Counted from the first letter of the stretch, positions 42,808 to 62,501 are shown. The stretch is 64,000 bases of DNA from a virus (IMGVR_UViG_3300042302_000394:1-64000); one strand, 5' to 3'. Made by a program: numbers and translations. The notes: generated by a model from the letters alone, not told the origin.

Positions 42808-42836
42808 ATTATACAGCCAGAACGGCTGTAAGTCAA
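42808..42836 (-). promoter_or_regulatory. Sigma70 promoter with hairpin in spacer
   Basis: TTGACT (42836-42831), 17-bp spacer, TATAAT (42813-42808). The spacer contains a perfect 7-bp dyad TACAGCC...GGCTGTA (loop 5). The TGA inside the -35 box is the stop codon of the 42833 gene. Confidence 0.85.
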
Positions 42837-43111
42837 GAGTCGGTAATACCAGTTTTGTCCAAATATTCCGAGTATTTCAACAGGAACATAGTACGCTTTG
42901 GCTCGTTGTAAAAGTCCAAATAGATTGACTCTTTTAGATACTTATGTCCAAAATCTGGATCCATCTTCCATACCCTGTGGGTTCTGCTAGTAAAACCTAA
43001 AACCGATTTCATCTTATTTCGAATTAGTAATACACTAGGCGGGTAATCCTGAGCTATTTGATTATAGATTTTAAGCCATTGTGCCTCGGACAACACTATA
43101 GATCTGCTCAT
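42833..43111 (-). CDS. Small hypothetical, 92 aa
   Basis: Helical basic protein (VLSEAQWLKIYNQIAQDYPP, TSRTHRVWKMDP). No domain recognised. Its TGA stop forms part of the -35 box of the next operon; shares one base with the 43111 gene. Confidence 0.68.
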   Translation of the reverse strand: MSRSIVLSEAQWLKIYNQIAQDYPPSVLLIRNKMKSVLGFTSRTHRVWKMDPDFGHKYLKESIYLDFYNEPKRTMFLLKYSEYLDKTGITDS

Positions 43112-43650
43112 TAGAACTCATTATTTTGATCCACGACTATCCAACCAAGTCGTTTTAGGTCTTCTTGAATTTCGGCAGTGACAACACTTTCCGGAACATA
43201 CCCGTTTGGGAAGGCTATGTTTATTTTTGGATCATAATTGTTGTCGTTTCGAATGCCACTACAATACCAATCGATGTAGTCTCCTTCTTGTAGCATATCT
43301 GCCACAATTCCACCAGCACGTCTCCAAGAAGCGCCCCAAGTTTGATTCTTGAGAATGGGCATAACGTCTAACTTTTGGAAGTCATTGTTGCAGATTGCGG
43401 CGTAGAGATTTTGAGCATATACATCACTTGTCCGTACCTTTTCCAAAATCCATTCAGTACTACGGAGATCGTACTCCATGTTATCCTTTTGCCATTCTGG
43501 ATCAACCATATTTTCTTCATCCTGTTGTCGTGCAGATTTGTAAAGATTAAGGTAATCTTCACTCGGCACTTTACCTTCTTCTTCACAGCGTTTTATATAC
43601 CCTTCGGCTTGAAAAGTATGTCGTTCAGGACTGCTTGAAACTTTAGTCAT
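43111..43650 (-). CDS. Conserved phage hypothetical, 179 aa
   Basis: Acidic protein, likely all-alpha at the N-terminus (RHTFQAEGYIKRCEEEG, LYKSARQQDEENM) and a WGASWRRAGGIVADMLQEG segment. No motif recognised. ATGA overlap with the 43647 gene. Confidence 0.7.
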   Translation of the reverse strand: MTKVSSSPERHTFQAEGYIKRCEEEGKVPSEDYLNLYKSARQQDEENMVDPEWQKDNMEYDLRSTEWILEKVRTSDVYAQNLYAAICNNDFQKLDVMPILKNQTWGASWRRAGGIVADMLQEGDYIDWYCSGIRNDNNYDPKINIAFPNGYVPESVVTAEIQEDLKRLGWIVVDQNNEF

Positions 43651-43901
43651 TGCAGATTTCGTTTGTCAGCTTCACCGAAGTCCTCGGCAAACATGCGGAG
43701 TTCTTCATCGCTAAGTTCATCAATAGGGACTGCTTTGTCGAACAATTCTCCACTTTGGATCAGTTGTCCAATTTCAGCCATCAACTCATCGAGCTCTTCC
43801 TGGGAACCTTCAAAGCTGTCGAAACAGCCAGGTGCAAATACAACTTTGAGCTCTTTGCGCTCTTCTGGAGTCATATCTTGAGGAGTTTTCTTTTCAGTCA
43901 T
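43647..43901 (-). CDS. Small acidic hypothetical, 84 aa
   Basis: Very acidic (EELDELMAEIGQLIQSGELFD, ELSDEELRMFAEDFGEAD), probably helical; could be a DNA mimic or inhibitor but nothing proves it. Start overlapped by the zinc-site gene upstream by 8 nt. Confidence 0.7.
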   Translation of the reverse strand: MTEKKTPQDMTPEERKELKVVFAPGCFDSFEGSQEELDELMAEIGQLIQSGELFDKAVPIDELSDEELRMFAEDFGEADKRNLQ

Positions 43902-44049
43902 TATTTTCTTTCGGAGTTAAGGGTCGATTGTTACAATAAAAACATTCACGGTCGTTACAAATATCTTCTAACCATTCATTGCAGGTTTCGCAATAGTGAG
44001 CATCATACTCTTTCGAGTACGATTTTATGCAATCAAGTCCACAGGCCAT
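43894..44049 (-). CDS. Small zinc-binding protein, 51 aa
   Basis: ATG at 44049, 51 codons. MACGLDCIKSY, YCETCNEWL, DICNDRECFYC: four paired cysteines (CxxC, CxxC) plus others, a rubredoxin/zinc-ribbon-like knuckle. It overlaps the 44033 gene by 17 nt and the 43647 gene by 8 nt, supporting real use. Confidence 0.72.
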   Translation of the reverse strand: MACGLDCIKSYSKEYDAHYCETCNEWLEDICNDRECFYCNNRPLTPKENND

Positions 44050-44884
44050 GACGCACCTTGATAAGACGGATCATCATTTCTTCATCTTCGGCTTCGTATG
44101 CCTGCTCAATTTCGTGAGTCTTCATAAGAGCAGCATCGCCTAAGGCACGAGTTTCTGGATTAGCACTTTCTTTCATAAAGCTAAGTCCAGTCTCGCCGTG
44201 TTCTTTGCGCTTGAGTTCACAGTACTCACTCCACCCGCCGGCATCGTGTGCGTCAGGACGGTTTGGATAAACATCTTTCCACCAACGATATAGGTCAAGA
44301 ACTTCCTGTGCCTTAACAGCCTGCGGAGTTGGCTTACCAATATTTGGATCACCTTCGGCCCAGCCACTATCTGTATCGTGGCGGAGACTTCGTTGCCAAT
44401 CCAGATTGTCGAGTCCAGCTTGTGGACAACGCCAGGTTCTCCAACGGAACCAACCAGTTGCCCAGAATGGGGGATTATACTTAACACTGTCTGCCTTATC
44501 TGCCCAAGCAATTTGCCACCAAGCTAATTCGACTTCAACAAAGTCGACCAGCTCATTAAAAAGACAAGGAAGGAAACGATTACCAACATCACACCACTGA
44601 CCGGGTTTAATGTCTTTAGGGTGTGCAGTGAGACTATGAGTACGAGTAACCCACCGGTTATTAACATAATACTTGATATCATAAATCTTCCTAACGGGCC
44701 AAGTGACAAAGTCTTGGAGGTGGCCGAGTGCTTCTTCCGCTAGCCAGTAACGGAAATTGTGTTTCATTTGAGCCGCAGTTGTCCAGTCGTCCCATTGTTC
44801 AGCTGTACCGGCACTAAGTTTCTTAGTACCACGAAGCCAATCTGCAAAAGGACTGCAACTCCAATATTTCGAGTGTTGTGCCAT
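44033..44884 (-). CDS. Conserved phage hypothetical, Trp-rich, 283 aa
   Basis: Start at 44884 (MAQHSKYWSCSP) is preferred over 44905, which overlaps the previous stop. Very Trp-rich (FWATGWFRWRTWRCPQ, ELAWWQIAW) with many conserved polar patches. Seen as a conserved unknown in aquatic T4-like phages. No catalytic motif recognised. Confidence 0.75.
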   Translation of the reverse strand: MAQHSKYWSCSPFADWLRGTKKLSAGTAEQWDDWTTAAQMKHNFRYWLAEEALGHLQDFVTWPVRKIYDIKYYVNNRWVTRTHSLTAHPKDIKPGQWCDVGNRFLPCLFNELVDFVEVELAWWQIAWADKADSVKYNPPFWATGWFRWRTWRCPQAGLDNLDWQRSLRHDTDSGWAEGDPNIGKPTPQAVKAQEVLDLYRWWKDVYPNRPDAHDAGGWSEYCELKRKEHGETGLSFMKESANPETRALGDAALMKTHEIEQAYEAEDEEMMIRLIKVRHGLWT

Positions 44885-44885
44885 T

Positions 44886-45572
44886 TTAGTCTTTCTTTTC
44901 GCCAAACAGTTGTAGTAGGCTTAGGAACAAGTTAATAAAATTCAAATACAAGCTCAGTGCTCCGCGAATTTCGGCAACACCATCATTTTCCATTGATACC
45001 TCTTCACGAATACGCTGTGTGTCGTAGGCAGTTAATCCAAGGAACACTAGAATAGCAATGGCCGAAATGACCATTTGAAATACTGTGCTACCAACAAAAA
45101 TATTGATAACGCTGGCAATAATAATGGCAATCAATCCAATTAACAATAGTGATCCAAATCCACTAAGATCCTTTTTAGTAAAGTACCCGTATCCACTCAT
45201 AACACCAAATAGGATCGCACCTCCCATAAAGGCCGATACAATACTGCCCATGTTGTACACCACAAAAATTGTAGCAAAACTAAGCCCCATGAGTGCTGAA
45301 AATATATACAAAAATATCTGTGAGCCCGTTTTACTAAACTTTTCACTGGCTACACTAAATGCCAAAATCAGTAAAAGAGGTGCAAAAATTACTATCCATT
45401 TCATAATACCAGTGAAGAAAAAGGCCATCAATGCTGCATTAGCACTGACCTGATAGCTAGTAAACATTGAAATCAATACCGCAATTGCCATGTGCCCATA
45501 GACCCGACCCATTGCAGAATTGATCTGCTCTGCGTTTCTATAGACACTATTTTCATAAGTTGTCGAATACAT
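44886..45572 (-). CDS. Bax inhibitor-1 (BI-1/YccA/YbhL-type) membrane protein
   Basis: 228 residues with seven predicted membrane helices from about residue 25 to 215. The family marks are the C-terminal TAYDTQRIREE (~176-186) with the paired acidic residue that governs ion conductance, then LSLYLNFINLFLSLLQLFG. In bacteria such proteins (YccA) are substrates/regulators of FtsH, and eukaryotic members suppress cell death. A phage copy may guard the host membrane or FtsH during infection. Confidence 0.93.
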   Translation of the reverse strand: MYSTTYENSVYRNAEQINSAMGRVYGHMAIAVLISMFTSYQVSANAALMAFFFTGIMKWIVIFAPLLLILAFSVASEKFSKTGSQIFLYIFSALMGLSFATIFVVYNMGSIVSAFMGGAILFGVMSGYGYFTKKDLSGFGSLLLIGLIAIIIASVINIFVGSTVFQMVISAIAILVFLGLTAYDTQRIREEVSMENDGVAEIRGALSLYLNFINLFLSLLQLFGEKKD

Positions 45573-45586
45573 ATATATAATCTCCT

Positions 45587-45826
45587 TTAACCTCTAATGG
45601 TTATTTGTGTTTTATTTACAACGGGACCGTCGCTAACGAAGTCTAATCCAGCCATCTTGCCTTCATAAACTTTACCGTTCCATCTCATTGGCATCTTGAT
45701 GCTTTTATTTAATACAACAGTTAGCCGATCTTTATCTTTAAATTCATAGACGGTAGCATCCACTAACTTACTAGTATTTGCCTGCCGCACTTTACATGTT
45801 TCACTATGCCTAATTATATCTGCCAT
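45587..45826 (-). CDS. Conserved small phage hypothetical, 79 aa
   Basis: Beta-rich basic protein (MADIIRHSETCKVRQANT; MPMRWNGKVYEGKMAGLDF). Similar small proteins precede BI-1 or structural genes in other phages. First gene after a consensus promoter. Confidence 0.72.
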   Translation of the reverse strand: MADIIRHSETCKVRQANTSKLVDATVYEFKDKDRLTVVLNKSIKMPMRWNGKVYEGKMAGLDFVSDGPVVNKTQITIRG

Positions 45827-45832
45827 ACGACT

Positions 45833-45861
45833 ATTATATAGTAGATTGTACCAAAAGTCAA
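45833..45861 (-). promoter_or_regulatory. Sigma70 promoter for 45587 and BI-1
   Basis: TTGACT (45861-45856), 17-bp spacer, TATAAT (45838-45833). ACCAAAA/TTTTGGT arms form a dyad around the -35 box. The TGA of the -35 box is the mazG stop codon. Confidence 0.85.
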
Positions 45862-46229
45862 TTGGTTTTGGTAATAAACGGAGTTAATTCTGGAGGCGTC
45901 CAGCCCAAAGGTTTAAGCACTTTTCCATCCTCGCGCTTACGCACCTTGCCTGTTTCTTTGTCAATTTTGGCAAAATTAGTTCTCATGACTTCTTTCCATG
46001 CACCCTCTGCATCTGCGCCCATGCTGTGTAATGCTCCTATTGTAACAACTAAAATATCGACTAGTGCATCGACGGTTTCGACTTTATCGTGTTGGCCTAC
46101 AGCTTCGCCTAATTCTCTACACTCTTCTTCTATTAGCGTCATGTAAAGGTTAAATTGATCTTCGTTAAAGTTATCAACGGTCTGGTCGCAGGCTCGCATA
46201 AACTTTTCCATATCTCTAAAAACATTCAT
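45858..46229 (-). CDS. mazG: MazG-like nucleotide pyrophosphohydrolase
   Basis: 123-residue all-alpha NTP pyrophosphatase. The ligand pattern EEECRELGEAV (~34-44) and ETVDALVDILVVTIG (~51-65) gives E-x-x-E and E-x-x-D metal sites. Enzymes of this class hydrolyse dNTPs, non-canonical NTPs or ppGpp-linked nucleotides; phage MazG is often proposed to lower ppGpp. The HD hydrolase at 61090 is a possible partner. Shine-Dalgarno AAAGGA upstream of the ATG. Confidence 0.88.
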   Translation of the reverse strand: MNVFRDMEKFMRACDQTVDNFNEDQFNLYMTLIEEECRELGEAVGQHDKVETVDALVDILVVTIGALHSMGADAEGAWKEVMRTNFAKIDKETGKVRKREDGKVLKPLGWTPPELTPFITKTN

Positions 46230-46286
46230 ATTTGGTCCTTTTGTTTTTTATTTTTTCTATTTTGAGCAGCTAGTCTCATTTTTTCT

Positions 46287-47063
46287 TTAGTTTCGTCGGA
46301 ATGTGTTTGTCATATATTCCTTGTTGTAAATTAAATTTTTAATACTTTGAGATCTACTCTTAGAACTCTTTTCCCCTAACACTGCTACTGCAAACATAGT
46401 ATCATTGTGCTTGACCAACATTACTAAGCATCTACCTGCTTTGCTGGTAAAGCCAGTTTTACTAATCAACACATTATAGTTTGTAATATCAGGATTAGTG
46501 TTTCTTACCTGTAATGTTACAGTCTTGTTCCTGTTATTGTCAAACTCTACTTTCTCATTTTCAGCCGATGAAATCTGTGTGATTAGCGTGTATCTACGCA
46601 ACCACCATACAAAATTTACTAGATCATTAGCTGTACTAACATTTCCGGCGCCTATACCACTAGCATCTTCAATACGAGTATTTTTTAGACCGATGTCGCT
46701 TATATGTTCATTGACATAGTTTATAAAGGCAGCGTAGCCACCAGGATGAGCATGTGCTAAACTGTCAGCGGCCCGATTATCGCTGGCGATCAGCATGGCC
46801 TTGATAAGTTCTATTCGGAGAACCTTGGTCTTATTTGGAAATCGTCCTGTTGTAGATCCTTTGACAACGATTGATTCGTTGAGATCAACTCCACTGTCAA
46901 TTACTGCCATTGCTGTAAATAGTTTAGTAACACTGGCAATTGGTACTACTTGATCTTCTCTAACCGCAGCCTCCATTACTGCATCGGTAAAATTATATAG
47001 TGCGGCAGTTGTGGCACCTGCGTTTAGAGAGCAGAACAGAAGAAGGATAGTTAGGATTTTCAT
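46287..47063 (-). CDS. Peptidase S11 / D-alanyl-D-alanine peptidase (PBP7-like)
   Basis: Starts at 47063 (MKILTILLLFCSLNAGATT), a signal peptide. Active site motifs are present: SVTK (SxxK, residues ~44-47), SDN (~98-100) and KTG (~201-203). Length ~258 residues. The family cleaves D-Ala-D-Ala crosslinks in the periplasm. Rare in phages: it may loosen the wall before lysis or aid DNA entry, or resist superinfection. A TAAATA box 5 nt before the ATG; no Shine-Dalgarno seen. Confidence 0.93.
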   Translation of the reverse strand: MKILTILLLFCSLNAGATTAALYNFTDAVMEAAVREDQVVPIASVTKLFTAMAVIDSGVDLNESIVVKGSTTGRFPNKTKVLRIELIKAMLIASDNRAADSLAHAHPGGYAAFINYVNEHISDIGLKNTRIEDASGIGAGNVSTANDLVNFVWWLRRYTLITQISSAENEKVEFDNNRNKTVTLQVRNTNPDITNYNVLISKTGFTSKAGRCLVMLVKHNDTMFAVAVLGEKSSKSRSQSIKNLIYNKEYMTNTFRRN

Positions 47064-47067
47064 ACAT

Positions 47068-47361
47068 TTATTTAACTTGTCCCCAACGAAGATAAAACTC
47101 GGATAACTTCTTTGCTTCAAGTTCCGCCATAATAATATACCTATATCCCATCCACATTGAATCCATATGTCTATGCCATTCTGGTTTATCTACAGCGTGT
47201 TTGAATACAAACTGCCCTGCTTCACTACGTTCCCAATCAAACATAGGCCCAGCAGCATATATGTCAGGATCGTCGACATCGGCAAGATTAAACTTATGCA
47301 CAACAACCTTGTGAATCTTTTTCACAACATCGCCTTCTACAGTATATCTTACTGAGCCCAT
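47068..47361 (-). CDS. Small hypothetical, 97 aa
   Basis: Alpha/beta protein with HMDSMWMGYRYIIMAELEA and an N-terminal MGSVRYTVEGDVVKK. Unknown. Overlaps the 47349 gene by 13 nt. Confidence 0.68.
   Translation of the reverse strand: MGSVRYTVEGDVVKKIHKVVVHKFNLADVDDPDIYAAGPMFDWERSEAGQFVFKHAVDKPEWHRHMDSMWMGYRYIIMAELEAKKLSEFYLRWGQVK
47069..47074 (-). promoter_or_regulatory. TAAATA late-type box for S11 peptidase
   Basis: Minus-strand TAAATA exactly 5 nt before the ATG at 47063; overlaps the stop codon of the upstream gene. Confidence 0.45.
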
Positions 47362-47678
47362 GATAGATGAAATACAGTTATAAATTTTTCAGCATCACTG
47401 CGATTTTTAAAATCCCACATGTCCCAAGACATTCGCTTACAGTTGGGCCAATCTTTTAATTTTTCTTCTGTCCATCTAACACAGTTGTCTAGATTTATTG
47501 AATGAAGATGGTCGTTTACAAATTCCTCTGCCTCGGACGAACCCCAGTCTTCTACAAGTTGTAGCCGCCACCATCTTACACCGGTACCTGTTCCATCACA
47601 ATTAAGTTTAGGTTTAATCACAGAAAGTTTTTTGCTCCACTGAAATATCACCGCCTGCAAATCATCAAGTGCGCTCAT
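47349..47678 (-). CDS. Small hypothetical, 109 aa
   Basis: MSALDDLQAVIFQWSKKLSV start; WWRLQLVEDWG and LSWAQ at the end. No known domain. ATGA overlap with the upstream 47675 gene. Confidence 0.68.
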   Translation of the reverse strand: MSALDDLQAVIFQWSKKLSVIKPKLNCDGTGTGVRWWRLQLVEDWGSSEAEEFVNDHLHSINLDNCVRWTEEKLKDWPNCKRMSWDMWDFKNRSDAEKFITVFHLSWAQ

Positions 47679-48130
47679 GCCTTCTTCTTTTTAAAGTACC
47701 GACGCTTTGGTTTATTGTCTTTTAGATTTAAAGGAGCGTGTTCCATCTCCATTTGACTCTTCTGTAGAGCCGCATGTATTTCTTCCGTGCTAGGCCCTTC
47801 TTCTTCCTCAGATGAGTCAAGACTGGGATGATCATCAAATGCAAAACCAACAGTACTGGCAAATTTAATAGTAGATTCAAAATTACCAAGGTTTCTTAAA
47901 GACCCCACCGGACCTTTTTCGTCTTGACTAATGTTATGCCACGTTCGAATCTCAAGAATAGGTTCAATGTGTGAAGGTACTTCGATAATATAGTGATCAC
48001 CGACAGAGTACCCTGCTTCACTTAGGTCAATTACTTTAATAACCTTGCCCTGAACAGGCTTGGTATTGCTTCGGTTAATGCCATATATCCATACTGTATC
48101 ACCTACTGCATATTGTTTTTTAACTGTCAT
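47675..48130 (-). CDS. Conserved phage hypothetical, 151 aa
   Basis: N-terminal half beta-rich (YAVGDTVWIYGINRSNTKPV, YSVGDHYIIEVP), resembling an SH3/OB-like barrel as found in small RNA-associated proteins; C-terminal tail is acidic then basic (EEEEGPSTEEI, KPKRRYFKKKKA). Perhaps nucleic-acid binding. The start lies inside the 48120 gene's tail by 11 nt. Confidence 0.68.
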   Translation of the reverse strand: MTVKKQYAVGDTVWIYGINRSNTKPVQGKVIKVIDLSEAGYSVGDHYIIEVPSHIEPILEIRTWHNISQDEKGPVGSLRNLGNFESTIKFASTVGFAFDDHPSLDSSEEEEGPSTEEIHAALQKSQMEMEHAPLNLKDNKPKRRYFKKKKA

Positions 48131-48293
48131 GTTTTTCCTTAACGCTTACGTTACCTTTAGACTCTAACATGTCCTTAATGAACTTGATAGCTTTTCTATC
48201 GGTATCGTAAACGTATTCTGCGTCCTCGTCATCGGTCCGCAAAGTTACTACAACACCGTTTTTTACCTTACGGATCTCGATTGACTCAAACAT
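48120..48293 (-). CDS. Small hypothetical, 57 aa
   Basis: ATG at 48293 preceded by AAGGTG. MFESIEIRKVKNGVVVTLR, then an acidic part and a helical end. No motif recognised. Coupled to the downstream gene by overlap. Confidence 0.68.
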   Translation of the reverse strand: MFESIEIRKVKNGVVVTLRTDDEDAEYVYDTDRKAIKFIKDMLESKGNVSVKEKHDS

Positions 48294-48305
48294 AAATTCA
48301 CCTTT

Positions 48306-49037
48306 TTATTTAGGAACACTTAAATTGTAATTGAAGTGAAAGATTCCAATATGAGCTGTTTCACGACTCAACTCTTGATCACACCAGATCTCGTAACCTG
48401 CTTTTTGTGCCTGTTGACAGAAGAAGATATCTTCACCGATTTCCAAATTAAGTTCTGGAATAAACTCTTGCAAGTAATGAGGCTGTGGGATTTTTTCATA
48501 TACTTCACGCTTGCAAAGTACTAGACCGTGTGGTAGAACATCGATCAGTTCCATTGCTGGACTATTATCTGTAGTTTGGAATTCACGGAAGTTTCCGCTA
48601 GATCCAACCATACCTGTGAAGTTTGCATTAGGGAAACGACGACGACGATAGTTAGCACCCACAATGTCTTTGTTCCGCTTGAGTAAACGAATAGGAGCAT
48701 CGATTGGGAATTTCATGTCACTGTCAACCCACCAGATATAATCAAAGTCACTCTTTAAGAAGATGTCAACTAGGTTACGACGAGCAATAGTAATAACACT
48801 ACCGATATTAAATGCACAATTAATCTTAATACCGTGTGCTACTAGATTAGCAGCCGACATAGCAAGATGTTGTGCAAACTCTGCATTGACCATTTCCATT
48901 GCTGGAACAGCAATCATAATTGATGGCGGTTTACCTCCTGGCTGCGTTGGCATCGCAGTGGTAGTTGGTGCTGTCGGAGCTGCCGGGCGAGCCAAGTTAG
49001 TCGGGCGGCTTGGAATGTTTAATTTACCTTTTTTCAT
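48306..49037 (-). CDS. Glycosyltransferase (GT-A fold), 243 aa
   Basis: Begins with a Pro/Thr/Ala-rich leader (~10-35), then IMIAVPAME (~40-48), the start of a nucleotide-sugar fold. WWVDSDMKFP (~102-111) holds a D-x-D metal site; GANYRRRRFPN and GEDIFFCQQAQKAGYEIW (~200-217) provide the acceptor-side acidic residue. Resembles family 2-like transferases seen in phage genomes. Directly upstream of other operon genes; may modify phage DNA, capsid or host LPS. Confidence 0.85.
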   Translation of the reverse strand: MKKGKLNIPSRPTNLARPAAPTAPTTTAMPTQPGGKPPSIMIAVPAMEMVNAEFAQHLAMSAANLVAHGIKINCAFNIGSVITIARRNLVDIFLKSDFDYIWWVDSDMKFPIDAPIRLLKRNKDIVGANYRRRRFPNANFTGMVGSSGNFREFQTTDNSPAMELIDVLPHGLVLCKREVYEKIPQPHYLQEFIPELNLEIGEDIFFCQQAQKAGYEIWCDQELSRETAHIGIFHFNYNLSVPK

Positions 49038-49049
49038 TTTTATCCTTAA

Positions 49050-49815: not shown

Positions 49816-50631
49816 GCGTAGTATTAGATTTTTCTTAACTGCGGAGTCCAAAACATTCATTTGCACACCTTGTTGTTCTGCGTATTTTAATAGAGCAGAA
49901 GTATCTTTTGGAAAGCACATACCGCCAAATCCGAACTCGCCGTCGGGTCCTGGCACCTTCATATGACTATTGCCAATACGACTATCCATTGTAATCATAC
50001 TGGCAATCTTATTATAATCTTGCCCTGTTTTAGTAGCAAGGGCATATAACTCATTCATAAACGTAACCTTAGTCGATAGGAATGAATTGATAGCATATTT
50101 GCTCAGTGCGGCTTCTTGGATAGTGCAATGCTGTACCTGTTCTAATGCAGTTTGCCCAAGCCGAATAATGCGTTCTGCATCACGCTGATATGCACCTACG
50201 CTACCGCCGATAATGGCAAACTTGCCATTTATATAATCTCTCTCAGCATTGGCAGCAGTTAGAAACTCCGGAGCATGAACTAGATTAGGGTACTGATCAT
50301 TTAGAGTTTGGTACACACTAGGTGGTGCAGTACACTTACTGATAATAACGCCTTTGTAATCTTTAAGTTTTTCTAAGACGTACTCTAATATACTGGCATC
50401 GCATTTGCCATCGTCTCCCATTGGAGTAGGTACGCAGACAAACACGCCTTCGCAGTCGGCGAGATCTTTAAATGTGTGTGAACCTTTTGTTGTATCTTTA
50501 TCAACTAGTATAAGGTCAGTTGAGATTTCCATTGATCTAGCAATGGCACTGCCCACAAATCCTAGGCCCACAATGCCTATTTTTGGGTTATTTGAAAAAG
50601 GGAAATTCATAATATATGTATTTAATGTCAT
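49798..50631 (-). CDS. Short UDP-glucose/GDP-mannose 6-dehydrogenase, 277 aa
   Basis: Rossmann start KIGIVGLGFVGSAIARSM (~16-33). Catalytic Cys in FGGMCFPKD (~241-249), conserved SKYAINSFLSTKVTFMNE-type central helix (shortened), and PEFLTAANA. It lacks the C-terminal UDP-binding domain of usual 390-450-residue enzymes, ending soon after the Cys. ATG 50631 gives ATGA with the previous gene; an ATG at 50610 after a TAAATA box is an alternative. It would oxidise UDP-glucose to UDP-glucuronate, the substrate of UXS here. Confidence 0.87.
   Translation of the reverse strand: MTLNTYIMNFPFSNNPKIGIVGLGFVGSAIARSMEISTDLILVDKDTTKGSHTFKDLADCEGVFVCVPTPMGDDGKCDASILEYVLEKLKDYKGVIISKCTAPPSVYQTLNDQYPNLVHAPEFLTAANAERDYINGKFAIIGGSVGAYQRDAERIIRLGQTALEQVQHCTIQEAALSKYAINSFLSTKVTFMNELYALATKTGQDYNKIASMITMDSRIGNSHMKVPGPDGEFGFGGMCFPKDTSALLKYAEQQGVQMNVLDSAVKKNLILRLTEPK
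50619..50624 (-). promoter_or_regulatory. TAAATA box before alternative start of dehydrogenase
   Basis: Minus-strand TAAATA 8 nt before an internal ATG at 50610. It may mark a late, leaderless start giving a 7-residue shorter protein. Confidence 0.3.
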
Positions 50632-50855
50632 TCACTGAGCCCCATAAAAATAAGTTCACGCTCTGTAACATTGGCAACAGGTTTGAGCCAACCGTGACGA
50701 ATACATTCATTGATAATCATCTTGTATTCTTTTGGACAACTTTGATTGATCTCAAATCCTGCTCGAGGTGCCTGCATCAATCCGTCGTAGATTACGAATT
50801 TAGGATCGCTCTGTTTGAGAGTGCGTATTTGACTTTTGTATAGAGTGTATGTCAT
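50628..50855 (-). CDS. Small conserved hypothetical, 75 aa
   Basis: MTYTLYKSQIRTLKQSDPKF and a C-terminal NECIRHGWLKPVANV. Unknown; helix-rich with winged-helix-like end. First gene after a promoter at 50862. Confidence 0.7.
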   Translation of the reverse strand: MTYTLYKSQIRTLKQSDPKFVIYDGLMQAPRAGFEINQSCPKEYKMIINECIRHGWLKPVANVTERELIFMGLSE

Positions 50856-50861
50856 ACTGCT

Positions 50862-50890
50862 AGTATAGCAGTATTAACATTGCATGTCAA
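50862..50890 (-). promoter_or_regulatory. Sigma70 promoter with -10 in a hairpin loop
   Basis: TTGACA (50890-50885), 17-bp spacer, TATACT (50867-50862). The -10 hexamer is in the loop of a perfect 7-bp dyad ATACTGC/GCAGTAT. The TGA of the -35 box is the stop of the SprT-like gene. Confidence 0.85.
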
Positions 50891-51621
50891 CGGTCTATCC
50901 AGTCTTTATTACGGTAAGGTTTACCAATGGCTGCTTGCGGTAGATATCGAACTACTTTCTTTTTTAATCGTTGAATAATGGGATGGTTGTGATCGTGTTG
51001 GAATGCTCTTAAATACATTCTCCAACTGTTGTGACGTCGTCTGATGCCTTTTTGGTTTTCACTTAGGTAGTCGACGATTTGGTCCACATCACCTTTAAAT
51101 TTGTCTATTAATTCACAAGCGATATTGAATCCGTATGCATCTATTTCATCGGAACAGCCCAAATAACTCTGCTCCATTTGCACTTCTGTTTTGTTTGCAG
51201 TGCTGGCATAATCTGGAATAATTTTAAATTTACGCCTACGATACTGCCTCATGTGTATCAATTCGTGTAGTAGGGTGTCTGCTACTGTATAACACATTCC
51301 CTTGTAGCGTTTTTTAGTTATGCATATATGCTCGTCAAACAACGAATAAACAAATATTATCTCTACAGCCTTCTTTTTATCTTGGTCCCACTCACTATAA
51401 TATGTTCCGCCCACCCAAACTTGATTGGATTCTACTTTAAAATTAGTACTTCGTTTAAACCTAACTGGCGCTAATTTTTTTAAATGATTGGTAATTTTGC
51501 TGTGGAATTTTTCTATAGTAAGCTGTTGCCCGACTAATTCCGGATAAAGAGAGTACAGGAAACTGGCGATAGTTTCTCGATCTAGCATAGACCAATTGAA
51601 TCGTACTCTTGGTGTAGTCAT
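50887..51621 (-). CDS. SprT-like zinc metalloprotease domain protein
   Basis: 244 residues with LLHELIHMRQYRRRKF (~118-133): HExxH active site of the SprT/zincin fold; a basic C-terminus (RLKKKVVRYLP). SprT relatives act on DNA-protein crosslinks (SPRTN) or as small metalloproteases in phages. Preceded by no ribosome-binding site of note. Located next to nucleotide metabolism (dCMP deaminase) genes. Confidence 0.85.
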   Translation of the reverse strand: MTTPRVRFNWSMLDRETIASFLYSLYPELVGQQLTIEKFHSKITNHLKKLAPVRFKRSTNFKVESNQVWVGGTYYSEWDQDKKKAVEIIFVYSLFDEHICITKKRYKGMCYTVADTLLHELIHMRQYRRRKFKIIPDYASTANKTEVQMEQSYLGCSDEIDAYGFNIACELIDKFKGDVDQIVDYLSENQKGIRRRHNSWRMYLRAFQHDHNHPIIQRLKKKVVRYLPQAAIGKPYRNKDWIDR

Positions 51622-55260: not shown

Positions 55261-55434
55261 TTAATTAGATGCTTTTGATTTTTGTAGCCGCAATTTATTA
55301 AGTTGATCTTCTAACATTTTAATATAATGTACAGAAAATCTTCTTCTTAGTTCTACGGGAAAATCTTTTGATGCAAGTCTGTACTTTTGAATCTCTTCTT
55401 CTTTGAGAAAAATAAGTTTATCGATATCATTCAT
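55261..55434 (-). CDS. Small hypothetical, 57 aa
   Basis: ATG at 55434 (MNDIDKLIFLKEEEIQKYR), ATGA with the upstream stop. Charged, coiled-coil-like. No motif. Directly precedes the glycan operon. Confidence 0.68.
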   Translation of the reverse strand: MNDIDKLIFLKEEEIQKYRLASKDFPVELRRRFSVHYIKMLEDQLNKLRLQKSKASN

Positions 55435-55613
55435 TGTGTACTATTTAATCGATCAATCTCATCGGCTGCTTCTTCTAACAAATCTGCAATACGGTCTGGC
55501 GTGCCTTCCTGTACTGATTTACGGTCTTTGATCTGTCTGCGAATCTCTGCTCGCTTGCGTAGGCGGAATATAAGACTCTGTTCACTTACTGGTAAATGAC
55601 TTTCGTCTTTCAT
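55431..55613 (-). CDS. Small hypothetical, 60 aa
   Basis: Basic, coiled coil with RLRKRAEIRRQIKDRK and an acidic end DLLEEAADEID. Conserved-type small phage protein. ATGA overlaps on both sides. Confidence 0.68.
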   Translation of the reverse strand: MKDESHLPVSEQSLIFRLRKRAEIRRQIKDRKSVQEGTPDRIADLLEEAADEIDRLNSTQ

Positions 55614-55976: not shown

Positions 55977-55994
55977 GTTCTTCTTTTTGTCTAA

Positions 55995-56792: not shown

Positions 56793-56887
56793 TTAGATAA
56801 CTCCAGTGGAAAAAAGATAAAAACAAACAACAAAACCCAAAGCAAAATACAAGGGCCTTAGCCAACGATCATTGATCATACAATACC

Positions 56888-57064
56888 TTAAAAAAGAATT
56901 ACAAGCACTGTCATCAACATTACTGCTGCCAGTGATACAAGTATACTATAGCCTATGCTTTTTGTCAAGGCCAATTGTTCCTTGCCTTCCATATTTCTCA
57001 TAGCACGAATGCCAAAATGTATCAGAACAGCAAGGATAGCAAATGCAAACCAAAGTTTAATCAT
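56888..57064 (-). CDS. Small two-helix membrane protein, 58 aa
   Basis: ATG at 57064: MIKLWFAFAILAVLIHFGI (first helix) and SILVSLAAVMLMTVLVILF (second helix). The coding sequence itself carries the promoter of the SPFH gene. A gap of about 90 nt to the SPFH start holds no gene. Function unknown; positions beside rIIB and SPFH suggest a membrane role. Confidence 0.72.
   Translation of the reverse strand: MIKLWFAFAILAVLIHFGIRAMRNMEGKEQLALTKSIGYSILVSLAAVMLMTVLVILF
56940..56968 (-). promoter_or_regulatory. Sigma70 promoter inside the 58-aa gene
   Basis: TTGACA (56968-56963), 17-bp spacer, TATACT (56945-56940) on the minus strand, driving the SPFH gene from within the coding region of the small membrane protein. 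Confidence 0.75.
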
Positions 57065-57069
57065 TTTGA

Positions 57070-58125
57070 TTATCCTTTAGTTGGGAAAGGCCAATCACTG
57101 CCTTGTGCCCTAAACACAGTTCCAGGAGGTGGTGTCACCTTACCATCAGTATTGCGAGTCCAACCAGTTGGTTGCACATAACGATACCGTGCTGGATCAC
57201 CGTTTTCGCGATCTTCCACACCGGCCTCGTATCCAACGTCATATGCATTGTGTTCTCTGGAACCATAGTTGTATGAATTGCTATAGTCTGCACCAGAGAA
57301 GCCGTCACTATAACCACGCTTATGGATACTTGAACCGACTCGGACTTCTGGCGCAGGCTTAGCCGCACGTACAGTTTCAGTACTGTTGGCATTGCTCTGT
57401 ACAGGCTTGTCAAAAGCATCCCTTGCTTCACCGCCCATTTCACCAATAACTTCATATCGGCAAGCACGACCCTTGGCACCATTGTAGTCACTTGGGATTG
57501 AAACAACATCAGCTGGATCAATCTTAACAATTACCACACGGCTGTCATTACCACCAAAGTGGTCCAAGTAACTCAAACCGCAGAAGTGGAGACCAGTACT
57601 GCAAGTTTGATCCTTGTTGTCGTCAACAGCGTTGCGTTCCATTTCGACAACAGTACCCGGGCTATTGTCCATAGTACCACTGTGAATGTCTTTGAAGTCT
57701 CGGCGTACTTTCTTGTAGGCAAGGAAGTAACCATCGGGAGTGATGGGCAAACTGTTCTTTTCCAAGAAGCCATAGAGTTCATCTACTGAACGCTTTGAAG
57801 GGTTCTTCATCAAGTTGTGCATGAACAGAACCATTGGCTCAATAGTAAAGCCATCCTGCAACATGGTAATCATACGGCTTGCCAATACACCTGCAAAAGG
57901 TTGTCCTTTCCAGAACAGTTGTTCGCCTTTGACAGAGATGTTGCCAGCACCGTAGTTCAGCACAACCTTGACTGGGTCAATAATGTTTTTAACAGTGTCC
58001 CAGTCTTGTGCTTTAATAGCATCAACTACCTTTTGGTAAGTGACGTGGGTCTTAGAAATCGTATGTGGTTTGCCGTCAATAACGACAGTAACATTCGAAC
58101 CTTGAAGAATAAACGGATAACTCAT
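57070..58125 (-). CDS. rIIB: rIIB-like protein
   Basis: Start at 58125 (MSYPFILQGSNVTVV) has an AAAGG ribosome-binding site 9 nt upstream. Features: AQDWDTVKNIIDPVK, VLFMHNLMKNPSKRSVDELY, SLPITPDGYFLAYKKVRRD, and STGLHFCGLSYL: the rIIB pattern of T4. The C-terminal third is Asn/Ser/Tyr-rich. rIIA/rIIB act at the membrane in lysis timing and exclusion avoidance. Starts 2 nt from the rIIA stop. Confidence 0.9.
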   Translation of the reverse strand: MSYPFILQGSNVTVVIDGKPHTISKTHVTYQKVVDAIKAQDWDTVKNIIDPVKVVLNYGAGNISVKGEQLFWKGQPFAGVLASRMITMLQDGFTIEPMVLFMHNLMKNPSKRSVDELYGFLEKNSLPITPDGYFLAYKKVRRDFKDIHSGTMDNSPGTVVEMERNAVDDNKDQTCSTGLHFCGLSYLDHFGGNDSRVVIVKIDPADVVSIPSDYNGAKGRACRYEVIGEMGGEARDAFDKPVQSNANSTETVRAAKPAPEVRVGSSIHKRGYSDGFSGADYSNSYNYGSREHNAYDVGYEAGVEDRENGDPARYRYVQPTGWTRNTDGKVTPPPGTVFRAQGSDWPFPTKG

Positions 58126-58126
58126 T

Positions 58127-60304
58127 TTAAATACCTTTCTTTGCATCAATTAAATTTACATACTCGGCAATATCGCTTGCCTCTACGCGGTAAGTACTCA
58201 AACTAGTCAACAACGGATAACGGCTGTTAACTGTGTTGAGTTCTGTTTGATACTTGGTCACAAGTGCTTCTGGGCTAAGGTTAGCTGTAGGAGCAAACTT
58301 GCGGAACAGTCTATCAATATTGTAGCGGTTTCCTGTGAACTTGTCAACCTTTACAAACACTGAAACCAGTTTAGCGTAAGGACTGTTGGCATCAATTTCA
58401 GCCAAAATATCTTTATTGTGGATGCCGTTGATAACATCGGCCCCCTCTAATGCACTCTTAACCAAACTCATCAACAGTTTGGAATTGTCCTTAGCAGCCA
58501 ACTGATCAACAATGTGTTCTTCAAAGTTCTTCCAGTTTGGCTTCTTCTTGATATCTTCAATGTCGCTCTTACGTACACCGTAGATCTCACCGTTGAACAA
58601 ATTGTGCAAGCTCTTGACATCTTCATGCATGTCCTTACCGCTAGTATAGCCTTTGGCACTTAGCATTGTGAAGCCGCTCAATGGTACATAGTAGTAGGTT
58701 TCTGTAGTGACAAACTTGCTAGTATCGCCTGCGGCACGCCAGACCATATCTTGCTCATCACGACGATAGCCACCGCCACCACGACGTTCCAACTTGAGAA
58801 TTGAAACGTTCTTACCCATGTTCTCACGTTCACGTTGCTTCAAGGTACTTGCGACAAAGCGACGAGCAAGCGGAGGTTCTTGGATAGCGGCAAAGAAAGA
58901 CTTGGTATCCATGTCCTTAGTCTTGTCTGCCTTTTCCAAAATCCAGATAGCACGGCTGTAAACATCGCAACCAGTTTCACGATAGTGATAACGAGCACGT
59001 TCGCCGGCACCGGTCTTTAAATCATTGATGATGAAGTGACTGGCGTCATCAACCTGCACATGCCATTCTTGCCAAGTGATGTAATGTCCGGCAGCATTTT
59101 TTGCATGTCCGGGAGCGTACTCTGTAGTGCTCTTACCAGTGGTCACAGCCTTGTTATGACGAGTCTGATGCAACTGTCGAATCTGGATGTTATAGTTAGC
59201 AGCCAGGTCCTCTACTTTAAACTCAAACCGCTTCAAACGGTTGTACTGTTTGTCGTCATAAGTAGGCAAAGCAGTGTCTTGAGCATACTTGCTCACAGCC
59301 GCGGTCCACAGTCGATGCTCTTTCTTCTTGAACAAGAACACAGCACGATCCCACAGGTTCTCAATAGCATCTGCTTCCTTGGCAATGACCACAGTCAACG
59401 CCGCATTGACTGCTTCCAATTTACGTTTGATAGCCGCAACAGTTGATGGGATGTAACTGAGGCCTTCGCGGCTGGCTTGGAAGTCCAGTTCGCCAATACC
59501 AAAGTGCATTTCCAAACCGCAGATCAACAACTGCTTCAACTCAGGCGGAATAGATCCGTCAGCGTTAGGCACCTCGATAGGATAAGCAATATTGCCCATA
59601 ATGGCTGCACTGTTACTGCGATCCTTGAAACTATGCACACCGGGAACAATGTCGCGGCTTTCGTACTCAGCATCAACAAACTGGAAATCGGAACTGCCAG
59701 AAACAACCGGACGGAGAGCAAAGTGTTTGTAGACAACTCGAGCTTCTTGTCGGAACTTGTCAAAGTCGTAACGATCGTTGACGGAAAACTTAACTTCAAC
59801 ACCAGCAGGCTCGTCTGTAGCTTCCTGCATCATCAAGGCAATGCTGGGCACGCCTTCCCCGTTGATAAAAGCTGAGTAGATACCCTTAACGCCGTTTTGG
59901 ATAGCAGTCACAGTGAAGTTGTCAGTGTAGCTGAACGGACTCTTTGAACCCAACCCCAGCGCACCAATAAACTCGTTGGAGTTTGTTTTAGTACTTTCAA
60001 AGTAAGTGGTGTAGATTTGGGTAACTTGCTGATGACTCAAGCCAGTGCCGTAGTCACGGATGGCAAAGTGCGGCTCCAATGTGTTGGGCAAATGCACATC
60101 AAACGGAGTGTCTTTCTTACCTGCGGCTGCATGGCTGTCCACAGCATTGCAACTCAATTCGCGGATGATAGCACGGATCTTGTTAGCATACAAGCCCGAA
60201 CTCAAAATGCTGAACGCTTTGGCAGAATTGCGAATACGGAACTCGCCAATTTCTGCTACGTTAGAAACAATAGCTTCGTTAACTGGAGCATTGTTGAGAA
60301 TCAT
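58127..60304 (-). CDS. rIIA: rIIA-like protein (GHKL ATPase-like)
   Basis: 725 residues with a GHKL ATP-binding fold: RELSCNAVDSH (~46-56), AIRDYGTGLS (~76-85), and GALGLGSKSPFSY (~105-117). The T4 rIIA protein is similar in size. Together with rIIB it governs rapid lysis and evades RexAB-type exclusion. A consensus promoter, fused to a terminator, lies upstream of the gene. Confidence 0.92.
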   Translation of the reverse strand: MILNNAPVNEAIVSNVAEIGEFRIRNSAKAFSILSSGLYANKIRAIIRELSCNAVDSHAAAGKKDTPFDVHLPNTLEPHFAIRDYGTGLSHQQVTQIYTTYFESTKTNSNEFIGALGLGSKSPFSYTDNFTVTAIQNGVKGIYSAFINGEGVPSIALMMQEATDEPAGVEVKFSVNDRYDFDKFRQEARVVYKHFALRPVVSGSSDFQFVDAEYESRDIVPGVHSFKDRSNSAAIMGNIAYPIEVPNADGSIPPELKQLLICGLEMHFGIGELDFQASREGLSYIPSTVAAIKRKLEAVNAALTVVIAKEADAIENLWDRAVFLFKKKEHRLWTAAVSKYAQDTALPTYDDKQYNRLKRFEFKVEDLAANYNIQIRQLHQTRHNKAVTTGKSTTEYAPGHAKNAAGHYITWQEWHVQVDDASHFIINDLKTGAGERARYHYRETGCDVYSRAIWILEKADKTKDMDTKSFFAAIQEPPLARRFVASTLKQRERENMGKNVSILKLERRGGGGYRRDEQDMVWRAAGDTSKFVTTETYYYVPLSGFTMLSAKGYTSGKDMHEDVKSLHNLFNGEIYGVRKSDIEDIKKKPNWKNFEEHIVDQLAAKDNSKLLMSLVKSALEGADVINGIHNKDILAEIDANSPYAKLVSVFVKVDKFTGNRYNIDRLFRKFAPTANLSPEALVTKYQTELNTVNSRYPLLTSLSTYRVEASDIAEYVNLIDAKKGI

Positions 60305-60342
60305 GTAAAACCTTTCAGTAGTGTGTTTGTCTGTATGTATAT

Positions 60343-60371
60343 ATTATACAAGAAAAAACCAACCCTGTCAA
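60343..60371 (-). promoter_or_regulatory. Consensus sigma70 promoter for rIIA-rIIB
   Basis: TTGACA (60371-60366), 17-bp spacer, TATAAT (60348-60343): perfect hexamers. The -35 box is in the loop of the terminator hairpin 60353-60380. Confidence 0.9.
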
Positions 60372-60380
60372 GAGTTGGTT
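60353..60380 (-). terminator. Terminator hairpin with embedded -35 box
   Basis: Minus strand: stem AACCAAC/GTTGGTT (7 bp) followed by TTTT; loop holds TTGACA. It ends the 60389 operon and starts the next. Confidence 0.8.
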
Positions 60381-60388
60381 TGTCCAAA

Positions 60389-60592
60389 TTATCTACCCAC
60401 TGCAATCAATCGAATTCGTAATGCGTTCAAACTTGACTGGATGGTCATAAGTTCTGCCAACGCCTTAGTGTAGTGACCGTTAGGATGTTTATCATGTCCC
60501 AGTTTACGATCTACGCCTAGAGCCATTTTTACACTGGCAATGGCTGTGTCAACTGCTTCAATTCTTGCTTCGAGTTTTTCTAAATCTGTCAT
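60389..60592 (-). CDS. Small coiled-coil protein, 67 aa
   Basis: MTDLEKLEARIEAVDTAIAS: heptads typical of a coiled coil; then NGHYTKALAEL and a basic end. Conserved small type. Overlaps the 60589 gene by ATGA. Confidence 0.7.
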   Translation of the reverse strand: MTDLEKLEARIEAVDTAIASVKMALGVDRKLGHDKHPNGHYTKALAELMTIQSSLNALRIRLIAVGR

Positions 60593-60798
60593 TTTCTTTT
60601 TCCAATCTTGTCTACAACATCGGCCTTGCTCTGTAGCAGTTGGGCACGGAAGCGACGATAAACTCGCAGTGAAGCGACACTCATAGGATCTTCCTTGCCC
60701 TCCAACTCTGCTATCTTAGCATCCAGTTCGGCTTCGTGGGCACGATGACGTTCGACATCTGCCTTGAGCCCTTTCGCATCACCCCAGAAGAATTTCAT
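60589..60798 (-). CDS. Small coiled-coil protein, 69 aa
   Basis: MKFFWGDAKGLKADVERHRA then AELDAKIAELEGKED and basic QSKADVVDKIGKRK. No domain recognised. Paired with the preceding gene. Confidence 0.68.
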   Translation of the reverse strand: MKFFWGDAKGLKADVERHRAHEAELDAKIAELEGKEDPMSVASLRVYRRFRAQLLQSKADVVDKIGKRK

Positions 60799-60799
60799 A

Positions 60800-61093
60800 T
60801 CATCCCCACTTTAAAATAAAGAACACAGCGTCCTTTTCGTTTTTAAATCTATACTCAAAGGGTCCAGTACTCCAGCGAGGATTATTATATCCTTCGTTTC
60901 TGTGTCCGAAATACTTTGAGCACCATGCCATCATCTCATCCTTTTCTTCCCACCAATCACCGCCTGAATAATACACAGTGTATTTCTGGGGAGCAAGTTC
61001 TTCTCGAACCCGCAGTTCTAAACTACGGGGCCGTTTAGTAAACCAGTTCATAGGAGTATGCGGATAAAAACTATTAACGTCTAAATCAATCAT
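60800..61093 (-). CDS. Small hypothetical, 97 aa
   Basis: Aromatic-rich protein (VYYSGGDWWEEKDEMMAWCSK, PFEYRFKNEKDAVFFILKW). The start at 61093 is supported by an ATGA overlap with the HD gene; an internal ATG at residue 15 is also possible. Unknown function. Confidence 0.66.
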   Translation of the reverse strand: MIDLDVNSFYPHTPMNWFTKRPRSLELRVREELAPQKYTVYYSGGDWWEEKDEMMAWCSKYFGHRNEGYNNPRWSTGPFEYRFKNEKDAVFFILKWG

Positions 61094-61626
61094 ACACCTA
61101 CGAACCGGCTGGCTTCGGCGTGCAACCCTGCGTCACCCTTGGTCATCACAGCCAACAACAATCTCTTTTCCTCCAAGTAGGTCTTGGCGAAAGCAGGATC
61201 GTGAGCCATGATGCTACGGCTGTTGCTGATCAAATCTGCCAACTTGATGGTCTGTGCTTCGGCGGGCGCTCTTGCAGTATGCTCACGGTCTATTGCCTTG
61301 CGGTGGGCACGATTGCCATCATGCGGTTGGCTAACATCAGTCAACCATCCAACCAAGGTAGCAACATCGATACCAAAGGCCATGTGGATGTCAGTGTATG
61401 TGCAACCAGTGTCTTCCACAACATCATGCAACCAAGCAGCCGCAACCATATCAGGAGTGCTACCCGGAACGCCTGCTACGATCTTGGCAACTTCAGCCGG
61501 GTGGACAATGTAGGGTTCGTTAGTGTACTTACGCCTCTGTCCAACTGCGGCGTGAGCAGCCATGGCATAGACTTGCGCCTTACGGACTACATCAAATCCG
61601 CTGAGATCCATTGTAAAATCTTCCAT
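61090..61626 (-). CDS. RelA/SpoT-type HD hydrolase (Mesh1-like)
   Basis: 178 residues. YIVHPAEVAKIV (~39-50), AAWLHDVVEDT (~63-73) and KLADLISNSR (~128-137) are the metal-binding His, His-Asp, Asp set of the ppGpp/NADPH hydrolases. The synthetase domain is absent, so only hydrolysis is expected. It may remove the stringent alarmone to keep the host growing; MazG is also in this window. A consensus sigma70 promoter precedes it. Confidence 0.87.
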   Translation of the reverse strand: MEDFTMDLSGFDVVRKAQVYAMAAHAAVGQRRKYTNEPYIVHPAEVAKIVAGVPGSTPDMVAAAWLHDVVEDTGCTYTDIHMAFGIDVATLVGWLTDVSQPHDGNRAHRKAIDREHTARAPAEAQTIKLADLISNSRSIMAHDPAFAKTYLEEKRLLLAVMTKGDAGLHAEASRFVGV

Positions 61627-61652
61627 GCTGCTCTCCTTGTTAATAAGTATAT

Positions 61653-61681
61653 ATTATAGCATGGATTTACCATGCTGTCAA
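61653..61681 (-). promoter_or_regulatory. Consensus sigma70 promoter for HD gene
   Basis: TTGACA (61681-61676), 17-bp spacer, TATAAT (61658-61653). GCATGG/CCATGC dyad fills the spacer. The TGA is the stop of the 61678 gene. An AAGGAGAG ribosome-binding site follows. Confidence 0.9.
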
Positions 61682-61908
61682 CCGGAAGTTTTAACCACTT
61701 CCAGGATGGTAATTTCTACTACTAAATGCTTACGCAGTAGCATGAACTTTTTGAACTTGGCTTCTATGTCCGCCTGAATGTACTCGTCATGGTAAGGCAT
61801 AGTAGCAACGTCCTCATAGGGTTCATCGTTTTCGTTTAACGCTATGAAACTGAGCTTCACTGTGCCCTGTTCGGGCTCTTTGAACATTTTAACAAATTTG
61901 TTGAACAT
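61678..61908 (-). CDS. Small hypothetical, 76 aa
   Basis: Beta-rich (VKLSFIALNENDEPY, LVVEITILEVVKTSG). No motif. A TAAATA box lies 5 nt before the ATG and uses the stop of the upstream phosphoesterase gene. Confidence 0.7.
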   Translation of the reverse strand: MFNKFVKMFKEPEQGTVKLSFIALNENDEPYEDVATMPYHDEYIQADIEAKFKKFMLLRKHLVVEITILEVVKTSG

Positions 61909-61913
61909 GCAAA

Positions 61914-61919
61914 TATTTA
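61914..61919 (-). promoter_or_regulatory. TAAATA late-type box
   Basis: Minus-strand TAAATA, 5 nt before the ATG at 61908; first three bases are the stop codon of the phosphoesterase gene. No Shine-Dalgarno. Confidence 0.45.
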
Positions 61920-62462
61920 GTGATGCCCTTTAATTTCGTTATCTTTAATCATACGAACTGCCCGATCCATGGAGATTACAATTTCCCCAGTTGAGTCCAT
62001 ACCCACATCCATGCAACGATATTTTTCCATGCCTGTAGTGCCACCGTGCAAGTGACCGTGAAAGTGCAGAGAACCACGATGCATCTGATCCCATTCATAG
62101 ATAGGATAGTGAAACATCACGCACTTGTGGCCATCATAGGTGATATCCAAATACTTATGTACTTCAACAAATGCATCGCGGAATGTTACATCCATTAGGG
62201 TCTTGCGGTCATGGTTGCCTTCTACAAGGATCTTATCTCCGTTCAACCGATTCATCATTCGTCCAGCATCACTTCCTGACATAAACGCTACATCGCCTAA
62301 GATGTAGACTAAATCACCCGGCTCTACTTTGTCGTTCCATTCTTCCGCCATTGCGTTATTCATATAAGCAACATCGTCACGAAATCGTGCCCGTGTTTGC
62401 GGACAGAACTTCATAATGTTCTTGTGCCCGAAATGGAGATCCGAAGTAATCCAAGTTTTCAT
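61917..62462 (-). CDS. Calcineurin-type metallophosphoesterase
   Basis: 181 residues. SDLHFGHKN (~7-15), GDVAFMSG (~56-63), VEGNHDRK (~80-87), MFHYPIYEW (~115-123) and FHGHLHGG (~134-141) are the metal-binding motifs. The family includes phage phosphatases acting on nucleotides or nucleic-acid ends. Its promoter at 62473 uses the stop of the kinase gene. Part of a cluster of phosphate-transfer enzymes. Confidence 0.92.
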   Translation of the reverse strand: MKTWITSDLHFGHKNIMKFCPQTRARFRDDVAYMNNAMAEEWNDKVEPGDLVYILGDVAFMSGSDAGRMMNRLNGDKILVEGNHDRKTLMDVTFRDAFVEVHKYLDITYDGHKCVMFHYPIYEWDQMHRGSLHFHGHLHGGTTGMEKYRCMDVGMDSTGEIVISMDRAVRMIKDNEIKGHH

Positions 62463-62472
62463 ATTATTTCCT

Positions 62473-62501
62473 ATTATACAGCCAGTGACCTATACCGTCA
62501 A
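62473..62501 (-). promoter_or_regulatory. Sigma70 promoter for phosphoesterase
   Basis: TTGACG (62501-62496), 17-bp spacer, TATAAT (62478-62473). GCCAGT/ACTGGC arms surround the -35 box. The TGA is the kinase gene stop codon. Confidence 0.85.

Follow-up and report, generated by a model that had tools for sequence, protein, structure and literature searches.

What packs the genes of a large phage so closely that the stop codon of one lies inside the promoter of the next? The question is raised by the window (the whole stretch of DNA analysed here, i.e. the first 64 kb of the 207.8-kb virus record IMGVR_UViG_3300042302_000394, also labelled G000), in which TGA triplets within -35 boxes and TAA triplets within TAAATA boxes end the upstream genes. 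We reason, at a probability of roughly 80%, that such sites are minimal junctions giving rise to leaderless mRNAs, in which the promoter reaches the start codon of the downstream gene and sometimes the stop codon of the upstream one as well. The original prediction, which was centered on the stop codons, missed the stronger regularity located downstream, namely a start codon at the predicted transcription start. Our predictions stem from sequence statistics (i.e., spacing, AUG-only starts, missing Shine-Dalgarno (SD) motifs, conservation, frame counts and pairing excess).

The counts were drawn from a comparison set of ~1.1 Mb, composed of 12 contigs (the present genome and 11 IMG/VR relatives that were read nearly whole). 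The relatives were found by two IMG/VR scans and their contigs are incomplete. As the contigs of the set share ancestry, the pooled counts are not independent, and deduplicated counts were used where a p-value matters. A wider IMG/VR sample of TATAAT-type promoters was used to compare coding fractions, among the matches listed.

Distance between promoters and start codons

Past the sigma70-type promoters (TTGAC/TATAAT), the distance to the first coding ATG was found to be bimodal, with a sharp class situated 5-7 nt after the -10 box (mode 6), a broad class at 17 nt or more, and few genes in between. An SD-like motif accompanied 1 of the 39 genes in the 5-7-nt class, as against 72 of the 89 leadered genes (p = 4e-18), and the start codons of the close class after TATAAT were exclusively ATG (29 cases; GTG 0, TTG 0). 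Roughly one in five host-type sigma70 promoters had leaderless spacing (TTGAC-17-TATAAT-N6-ATG). In the IMG/VR sample, an open reading frame (ORF) of at least 60 codons was located 6 nt past TATAAT in 75 of 120 cases and 12 nt past it in 32 of 108, among the matches listed.

A second type of box, TAAATA, stood 4-8 nt (mode 5) ahead of 131 coding ATGs in the 12-contig set, where 19.5 were expected (33 against 4.5 in the present genome alone), and in an unbiased scan of all hexamers no start-site signal of the family was stronger than TAAATA at 5 nt (82 vs 4.9). The codons found 4-8 nt after the box were ATG (131), TTG (5) and GTG (1), the latter two both below background, while an SD motif preceded 2 of the 114 deduplicated TAAATA-leaderless genes. 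Both box and spacing were retained in 65 of 103 orthologue pairs sharing less than 75% identity.

The -10 box of sigma70 promoters ends at position -7, and the T4 late box, which starts at -13/-12 (PMC2988020), ends at -6. With modes of 6 and 5 nt, respectively, the A of ATG falls at +1 in both classes. The promoter would thus run up to the transcription start, with the A of AUG as the predicted first nucleotide of a leaderless, and presumably so translated, mRNA; this arrangement would apply to many T4-late-like boxes (TAAATA-N5-ATG), whose recognition by a gp55-like factor is presumed, and to about a fifth of the sigma70 promoters. Boxes with this spacing in the window include the following:

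1628-1641, plus strand: late-type box, TAAATA 1628-1633, ATG 1639-1641 (5 nt); no co-directional ORF detected up to the box
5283-5297, minus strand: late-type box, TAAATA 5292-5297, ATG 6 nt later
13090-13106, minus strand: late-type box, TAAATA 13101-13106, ATG 13090-13092 (8 nt)
47061-47074, minus strand: late-type box, TAAATA 47069-47074, ATG 47061-47063 (5 nt); the orthologue in relative G010 keeps the spacing
50608-50624, minus strand: late-type box, TAAATA 50619-50624, ATG 8 nt later
55432-55447, minus strand: late-type box, TAAATA 55442-55447, ATG 7 nt later
63488-63501, plus strand: late-type box, TAAATA 63488-63493, ATG 63499-63501 (5 nt)
63737-63750, plus strand: late-type box, TAAATA 63737-63742, ATG 63748-63750 (5 nt)

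The box at 63488-63493 stands back to back with an early promoter on the minus strand (63454-63482), an arrangement kept in relatives G008, G010, G011 and G012.

Stop codons inside promoter boxes

On its upstream side, the promoter may lie so close to the preceding gene that this gene takes its stop codon from the box itself, either the TGA that is invariant in TTGAC or the TAA of TAAATA. The overlaps originally reported were borne out by the sequence and its reading frames. The five TGA-bearing -35 boxes (42831-42836, 45856-45861, 50885-50890, 61676-61681 and 62496-62501, all on the minus strand) close upstream ORFs that are open for 94, 129, 252, 83 and 154 codons, respectively, and all five promoters have a 17-bp spacer and a -10 box reading TATAAT or TATACT. 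Likewise, the TAA of TAAATA boxes at 905-910, 16572-16577 and 61914-61919 (minus strand) is the stop codon of the gene lying before the starts at 897, 16566 and 61908. The whole record holds 12 TGA/-35 overlaps among 57 candidate promoters and six TAA/TAAATA overlaps, and several of the stop/promoter overlaps are conserved in relatives. The zero-length intergenic regions that had been proposed also exist, as some intergenic regions are a promoter and nothing else: at 45824-45861, 50853-50890 and 26454-26492, one bare promoter occupies everything from the upstream stop codon to the next start codon. A promoter placed with its predicted start on the A of ATG explains these regions. Three stop/promoter junctions follow one another between 62962 and 61090. 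The individual sites are:

45824-45861, minus strand: bare-promoter junction, -35 TTGACT 45856-45861, -10 TATAAT 45833-45838, ATG 45824-45826 (6 nt); TGA 45858-45860 is the stop of a MazG-like gene (45858-46229), and ORF 45587-45826 is predicted to be leaderless
50853-50890, minus strand: bare-promoter junction, -35 TTGACA 50885-50890, -10 TATACT 50862-50867 in a hairpin loop, ATG 50853-50855 (6 nt); the TGA is the stop of gene 50887-51621, ORF 50628-50855 is predicted to be leaderless, and the junction is also found in relative G008
26454-26492, minus strand: bare-promoter junction, -35 TTGACA 26487-26492, 18-bp spacer, -10 TATAAT 26463-26468, ATG 26454-26456 (6 nt); the TGA is the stop of gene 26489-26731, and ORF 25938-26456 is predicted to be leaderless
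62460-62501, minus strand: junction, -35 TTGACG 62496-62501, -10 TATAAT 62473-62478, ATG 62460-62462 (10 nt), predicted leaderless or with a leader of a few nt; the TGA is the stop of a kinase/ATPase-like gene (62498-62962), and a phosphoesterase gene (61917-62462) lies downstream
61906-61919, minus strand: late-type box, TAAATA 61914-61919 with its TAA as the phosphoesterase stop, ATG 61906-61908 (5 nt); the 76-aa gene 61678-61908 is predicted to be leaderless
61624-61681, minus strand: promoter with leader, -35 TTGACA 61676-61681 (TGA is the stop of the 76-aa gene), -10 TATAAT 61653-61658, SD AAGGAG, ATG 61624-61626; 7-bp inverted repeat in the spacer
42774-42836, minus strand: promoter with leader, -35 TTGACT 42831-42836 (TGA is the stop of gene 42833-43111), -10 TATAAT 42808-42813, SD AAGGAG, ATG 42774-42776; 7-bp inverted repeat in the spacer
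895-910, minus strand: late-type box, TAAATA 905-910 (TAA is the stop of gene 908-1612), ATG 895-897 (7 nt)
16564-16577, minus strand: late-type box, TAAATA 16572-16577 (TAA is the stop of gene 16575-17399), ATG 16564-16566 (5 nt), opening a peptide deformylase gene (16057-16566)

Two readings would assign these overlaps to translation. In the first, TAAATA ahead of ATG is a translational signal (stop-start coupling or an A/U-rich ribosome site); where an upstream ORF exists (62 cases), it ends on this TAA 16 times. We regard this as very unlikely, since most boxes carry no stop overlap, 52 of the 114 deduplicated TAAATA-leaderless genes have no co-directional ORF detected running up to the box, and the fixed 5-nt spacing fits a T4-type late box, the sigma70 promoters showing the same spacing shifted by one. 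The second, put forward with the original prediction, holds that a ribosome finishing the upstream gene is positioned on the promoter that follows and so couples upstream translation to downstream initiation. Although the overlaps exist, this coupling is scarcely credible: a ribosome rides the RNA and not the promoter DNA, most promoters of the class have no overlap, and the same 52 genes lack a detected co-directional ORF that reaches the box.

Overlap frequency

The overlaps had further been judged too frequent for chance, and a genome-wide count against random placement had been proposed, which we ran. Upstream stops were found at offset +1 relative to the -35 box (i.e., the TGA of TTGAC) at 12 sites in the present genome, and at three or fewer sites at every other offset; in the comparison set offset +1 accounted for 39 sites (23 after removing similar contexts), and any other offset for at most 9. 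The uniform-offset null was discarded as too generous, since TTGAC has a stop in one of the three frames and a gene entering in that frame must end there. It was replaced by a frame test, in which the share of read-in genes ending at the box stop is compared with an expectation of 1/3. By this measure, 11 of the 14 read-in genes of the present genome ended at the TGA (p = 7e-4), as did 21 of 39 in the deduplicated family (p = 0.007), but 11 of 26 in the family minus the present genome (p = 0.22) and, among the matches listed, 18 of 48 in the IMG/VR sample of strong sigma70-like promoters (p = 0.32). The TAA of TAAATA boxes ended 16 of 37 read-in genes (p = 0.14). Hence, the claimed excess is clear against uniform placement and modest against the frame null, under which it lacks significance outside the present genome and for TAAATA; it is clearest in the present genome, and geometry dictates most of the pattern.

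It is on balance probable that plain compaction (crowded genes and stop-containing motifs, with about one third of read-ins ending there) accounts for the overlap, which would then be without function of its own. While the shares near 1/3 outside the present genome and for TAAATA agree with this explanation, the present genome and the deduplicated family exceed it, and the spacing to ATG is left wholly unexplained. Within the leaderless-junction reading, the overlap would likewise be mostly forced by the reading frame once a gene enters the promoter, with a modest excess in the present genome. We stress that the stop-codon part serves as a caution: motif coincidences call for a frame-aware null.

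Gene ends in the relatives

The promoter whose -35 box ends at 61681 borders different genes in different relatives. Its TGA ends the 76-aa gene in G000, G003 and G007, but the phosphoesterase in G002, G008 and G011, which are devoid of the 76-aa gene and in which the phosphoesterase extends by two codons to the TGA of the same promoter. Here, a unit that has been gained or lost is bounded by the promoter and its stop codon. In addition, the gene end at 62501 is kept in G010 and G012 despite different downstream genes and spacers, and that at 127223 in G006 and G007 despite unrelated spacers. A stop can move along with the promoter as neighbouring genes come or go.

Such cases could reflect a module boundary resembling the PeSL, i.e. 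the composite promoter-terminator motifs of T4-like phages (Arbiol 2010; Comeau 2014; as far as related in PMC4503421), where promoter and stop (sometimes with a hairpin) would be kept because the overlap makes gene exchange at the promoter safe, any gene joined in the right frame being supplied with a stop. The shared TGA of promoter 61681 and the two gene ends kept in changed surroundings are in line with it. Nevertheless, we consider it doubtful, as the search for shuffling junctions (a PeSL trait) gave a single clear case of upstream-gene swap (promoter 61681), two thirds of the frames get no stop, and exchange at the promoter itself goes beyond what the comparison of relatives conveys.

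Hairpins overlapping promoters

Several promoters overlap an inverted repeat whose loop holds the -35 or the -10 box, in some cases with a U-tract (60371, 126640, 25253, 202975). The one ahead of rIIA is listed below:

60343-60381, minus strand: composite terminator/promoter, hairpin and U-tract AACCAACTC-TTGACA-GGGTTGGTTTTTTC; the loop holds the -35 box 60366-60371, and the -10 box is at 60343-60348

In relatives G002 (130166) and G008 (88054) the 3' arm of the repeat and the U-tract form the first codons of a gene with leaderless spacing. Pairing between spacer and downstream sequence, and between upstream sequence and spacer, exceeded that of permuted partners (p 0.0016 or less). In this subset of junctions, a hairpin over the -35 or -10 box could act as a terminator that halts read-through RNA and spares RNA begun inside the loop, in which it cannot form.

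The hairpins with the -10 box in the loop at G000 127223/G006 6651 and G000 143435/G006 23798 persist despite changed arms, with at least one paired change as judged by eye. Separately, record positions 198431-207616 hold a dense run of near-identical early promoters (TTGACA-agttggtaaaaccttgc-TATAAT) ahead of small plus-strand genes, the spacer carrying a conserved GGTAAAACC.

Source of the record and distribution among phages

The proteins of the record are distantly T4-like: rIIA, rIIB and NrdA are among those that match T4, KVP40, cyanophages and HTVC008M (which infects Pelagibacter, SAR11, and is itself T4-like), mostly at 25-48% identity. None of the T4 head and tail genes that were tested was found in the 207.8-kb record, which is therefore probably incomplete or very divergent there. 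The source is a large freshwater phage of a distant T4-like jumbo-phage lineage. Bacterial genomes searched with the peptide deformylase (for a host) gave only matches of 33-38%, to unrelated taxa. The record also encodes a Clp-like ATP-dependent protease (window 13782-16073) and ~40 tRNA genes, a nearly complete set (record 83-92 kb and 207 kb). Homologues of curli-type genes (HTVC008M 7562-9557, annotated CsgF, CsgG) were found in relatives G003 (171669-174556) and G008 (40880-41386).

The TAAATA spacing of 4-8 nt before ATG was not seen in T4, KVP40, Syn9, S-PM2 and phiM12. In HTVC008M, the all-hexamer scan ranked TAAATA at 5 nt first among start-site signals (12 vs 0.9). At five sites that were checked, the gene starts annotated independently by its depositors lie 5 nt past the box, and the TAA of the box also terminates two upstream genes. 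A mixed IMG/VR viral sample (loci L091-L328) also peaked at 5 nt (57 vs ~9 per position), and the TAAATA-5-ATG layout may be widespread among viral contigs.

Several observations weigh against leaderless junctions as a general explanation. Under strict criteria, G002, G003 and HTVC008M showed no sigma70 leaderless class. The full T4 octamer (TATAAATA) was present in 53 of 795 boxes, the core being TAAATA with an A preferred before it. A gp55 homologue was searched for in the contigs of the family, themselves incomplete, and none was found, whereas HTVC008M has one. The overall folding energy near promoters showed no difference from that of random genome segments (p = 0.24). Lastly, the mRNAs may have a leader of 1-3 nt instead of none.

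We tentatively propose, as a possibility that we hold rather doubtful, that leaderless mRNAs, made from a T4-type late promoter fused to AUG, carry much of the late programme in a broad environmental T4-like group (this freshwater lineage, HTVC008M and others in IMG/VR), possibly for 5'-AUG initiation favoured in the infected cell, with most early genes keeping SD leaders. Apart from this proposal, the leaderless layout predicts the start sites and translation mode of dozens of genes per phage from sequence alone, would correct start-codon calls that depend on SD motifs, and separates the T4-like phages according to whether their late genes are leadered or leaderless.

Comparison with known systems

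Leaderless mRNAs and their translation are already established, and phage transcripts are stated to be often leaderless (PMC5312081). On leaderless transcripts of T4-like phages, cyanophages or pelagiphages, nothing was found in the listed titles and abstracts of the open-licence literature. T4-type late boxes that are systematically fused to AUG, in one part of the T4-like phages, seem to be new.

T4-type late promoters (TATAAATA; gp55/gp33/gp45) share with the boxes described here an AT-rich sequence with a TAAATA core, a position just upstream of starts and no need for a -35 box, and the 5-nt spacing fits the T4 start position. They differ in that the box of T4, KVP40, Syn9, S-PM2 and phiM12 is not 4-8 nt from ATG, as it is here, and in that the full octamer is rare here. 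The late genes of HTVC008M have the same top hexamer arrangement (TAAATA-N5-ATG) and annotated stops on the TAA of the box, although its proteins are only distantly related and it has no sigma70 leaderless class under strict criteria.

The PeSL, as far as its description in PMC4503421 goes, resembles the hairpin-bearing sites in combining a strong early promoter with a terminator-like stem-loop at intergenic positions. Here this concerns a subset of the promoters, the combination frequently merges with the stop codon upstream, and the predicted leaderless coding sequence of some relatives takes in the 3' arm and the U-tract.

In bacterial leaderless genes the Pribnow box is located ~10-12 bp before the start codon (PMC3160421). 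The junctions presented here agree with these genes in having the -10 box at start-site distance, no SD motif and an AUG start, and differ from them in that they occur in a phage lineage and fall into two promoter classes, with the spacing expected for each. The classic leaderless phage transcript is that of lambda cI, with AUG at the 5' end of the mRNA (reviewed in PMC9031893); however, lambda cI and other such phage transcripts are single genes, whereas dozens per genome are predicted here.

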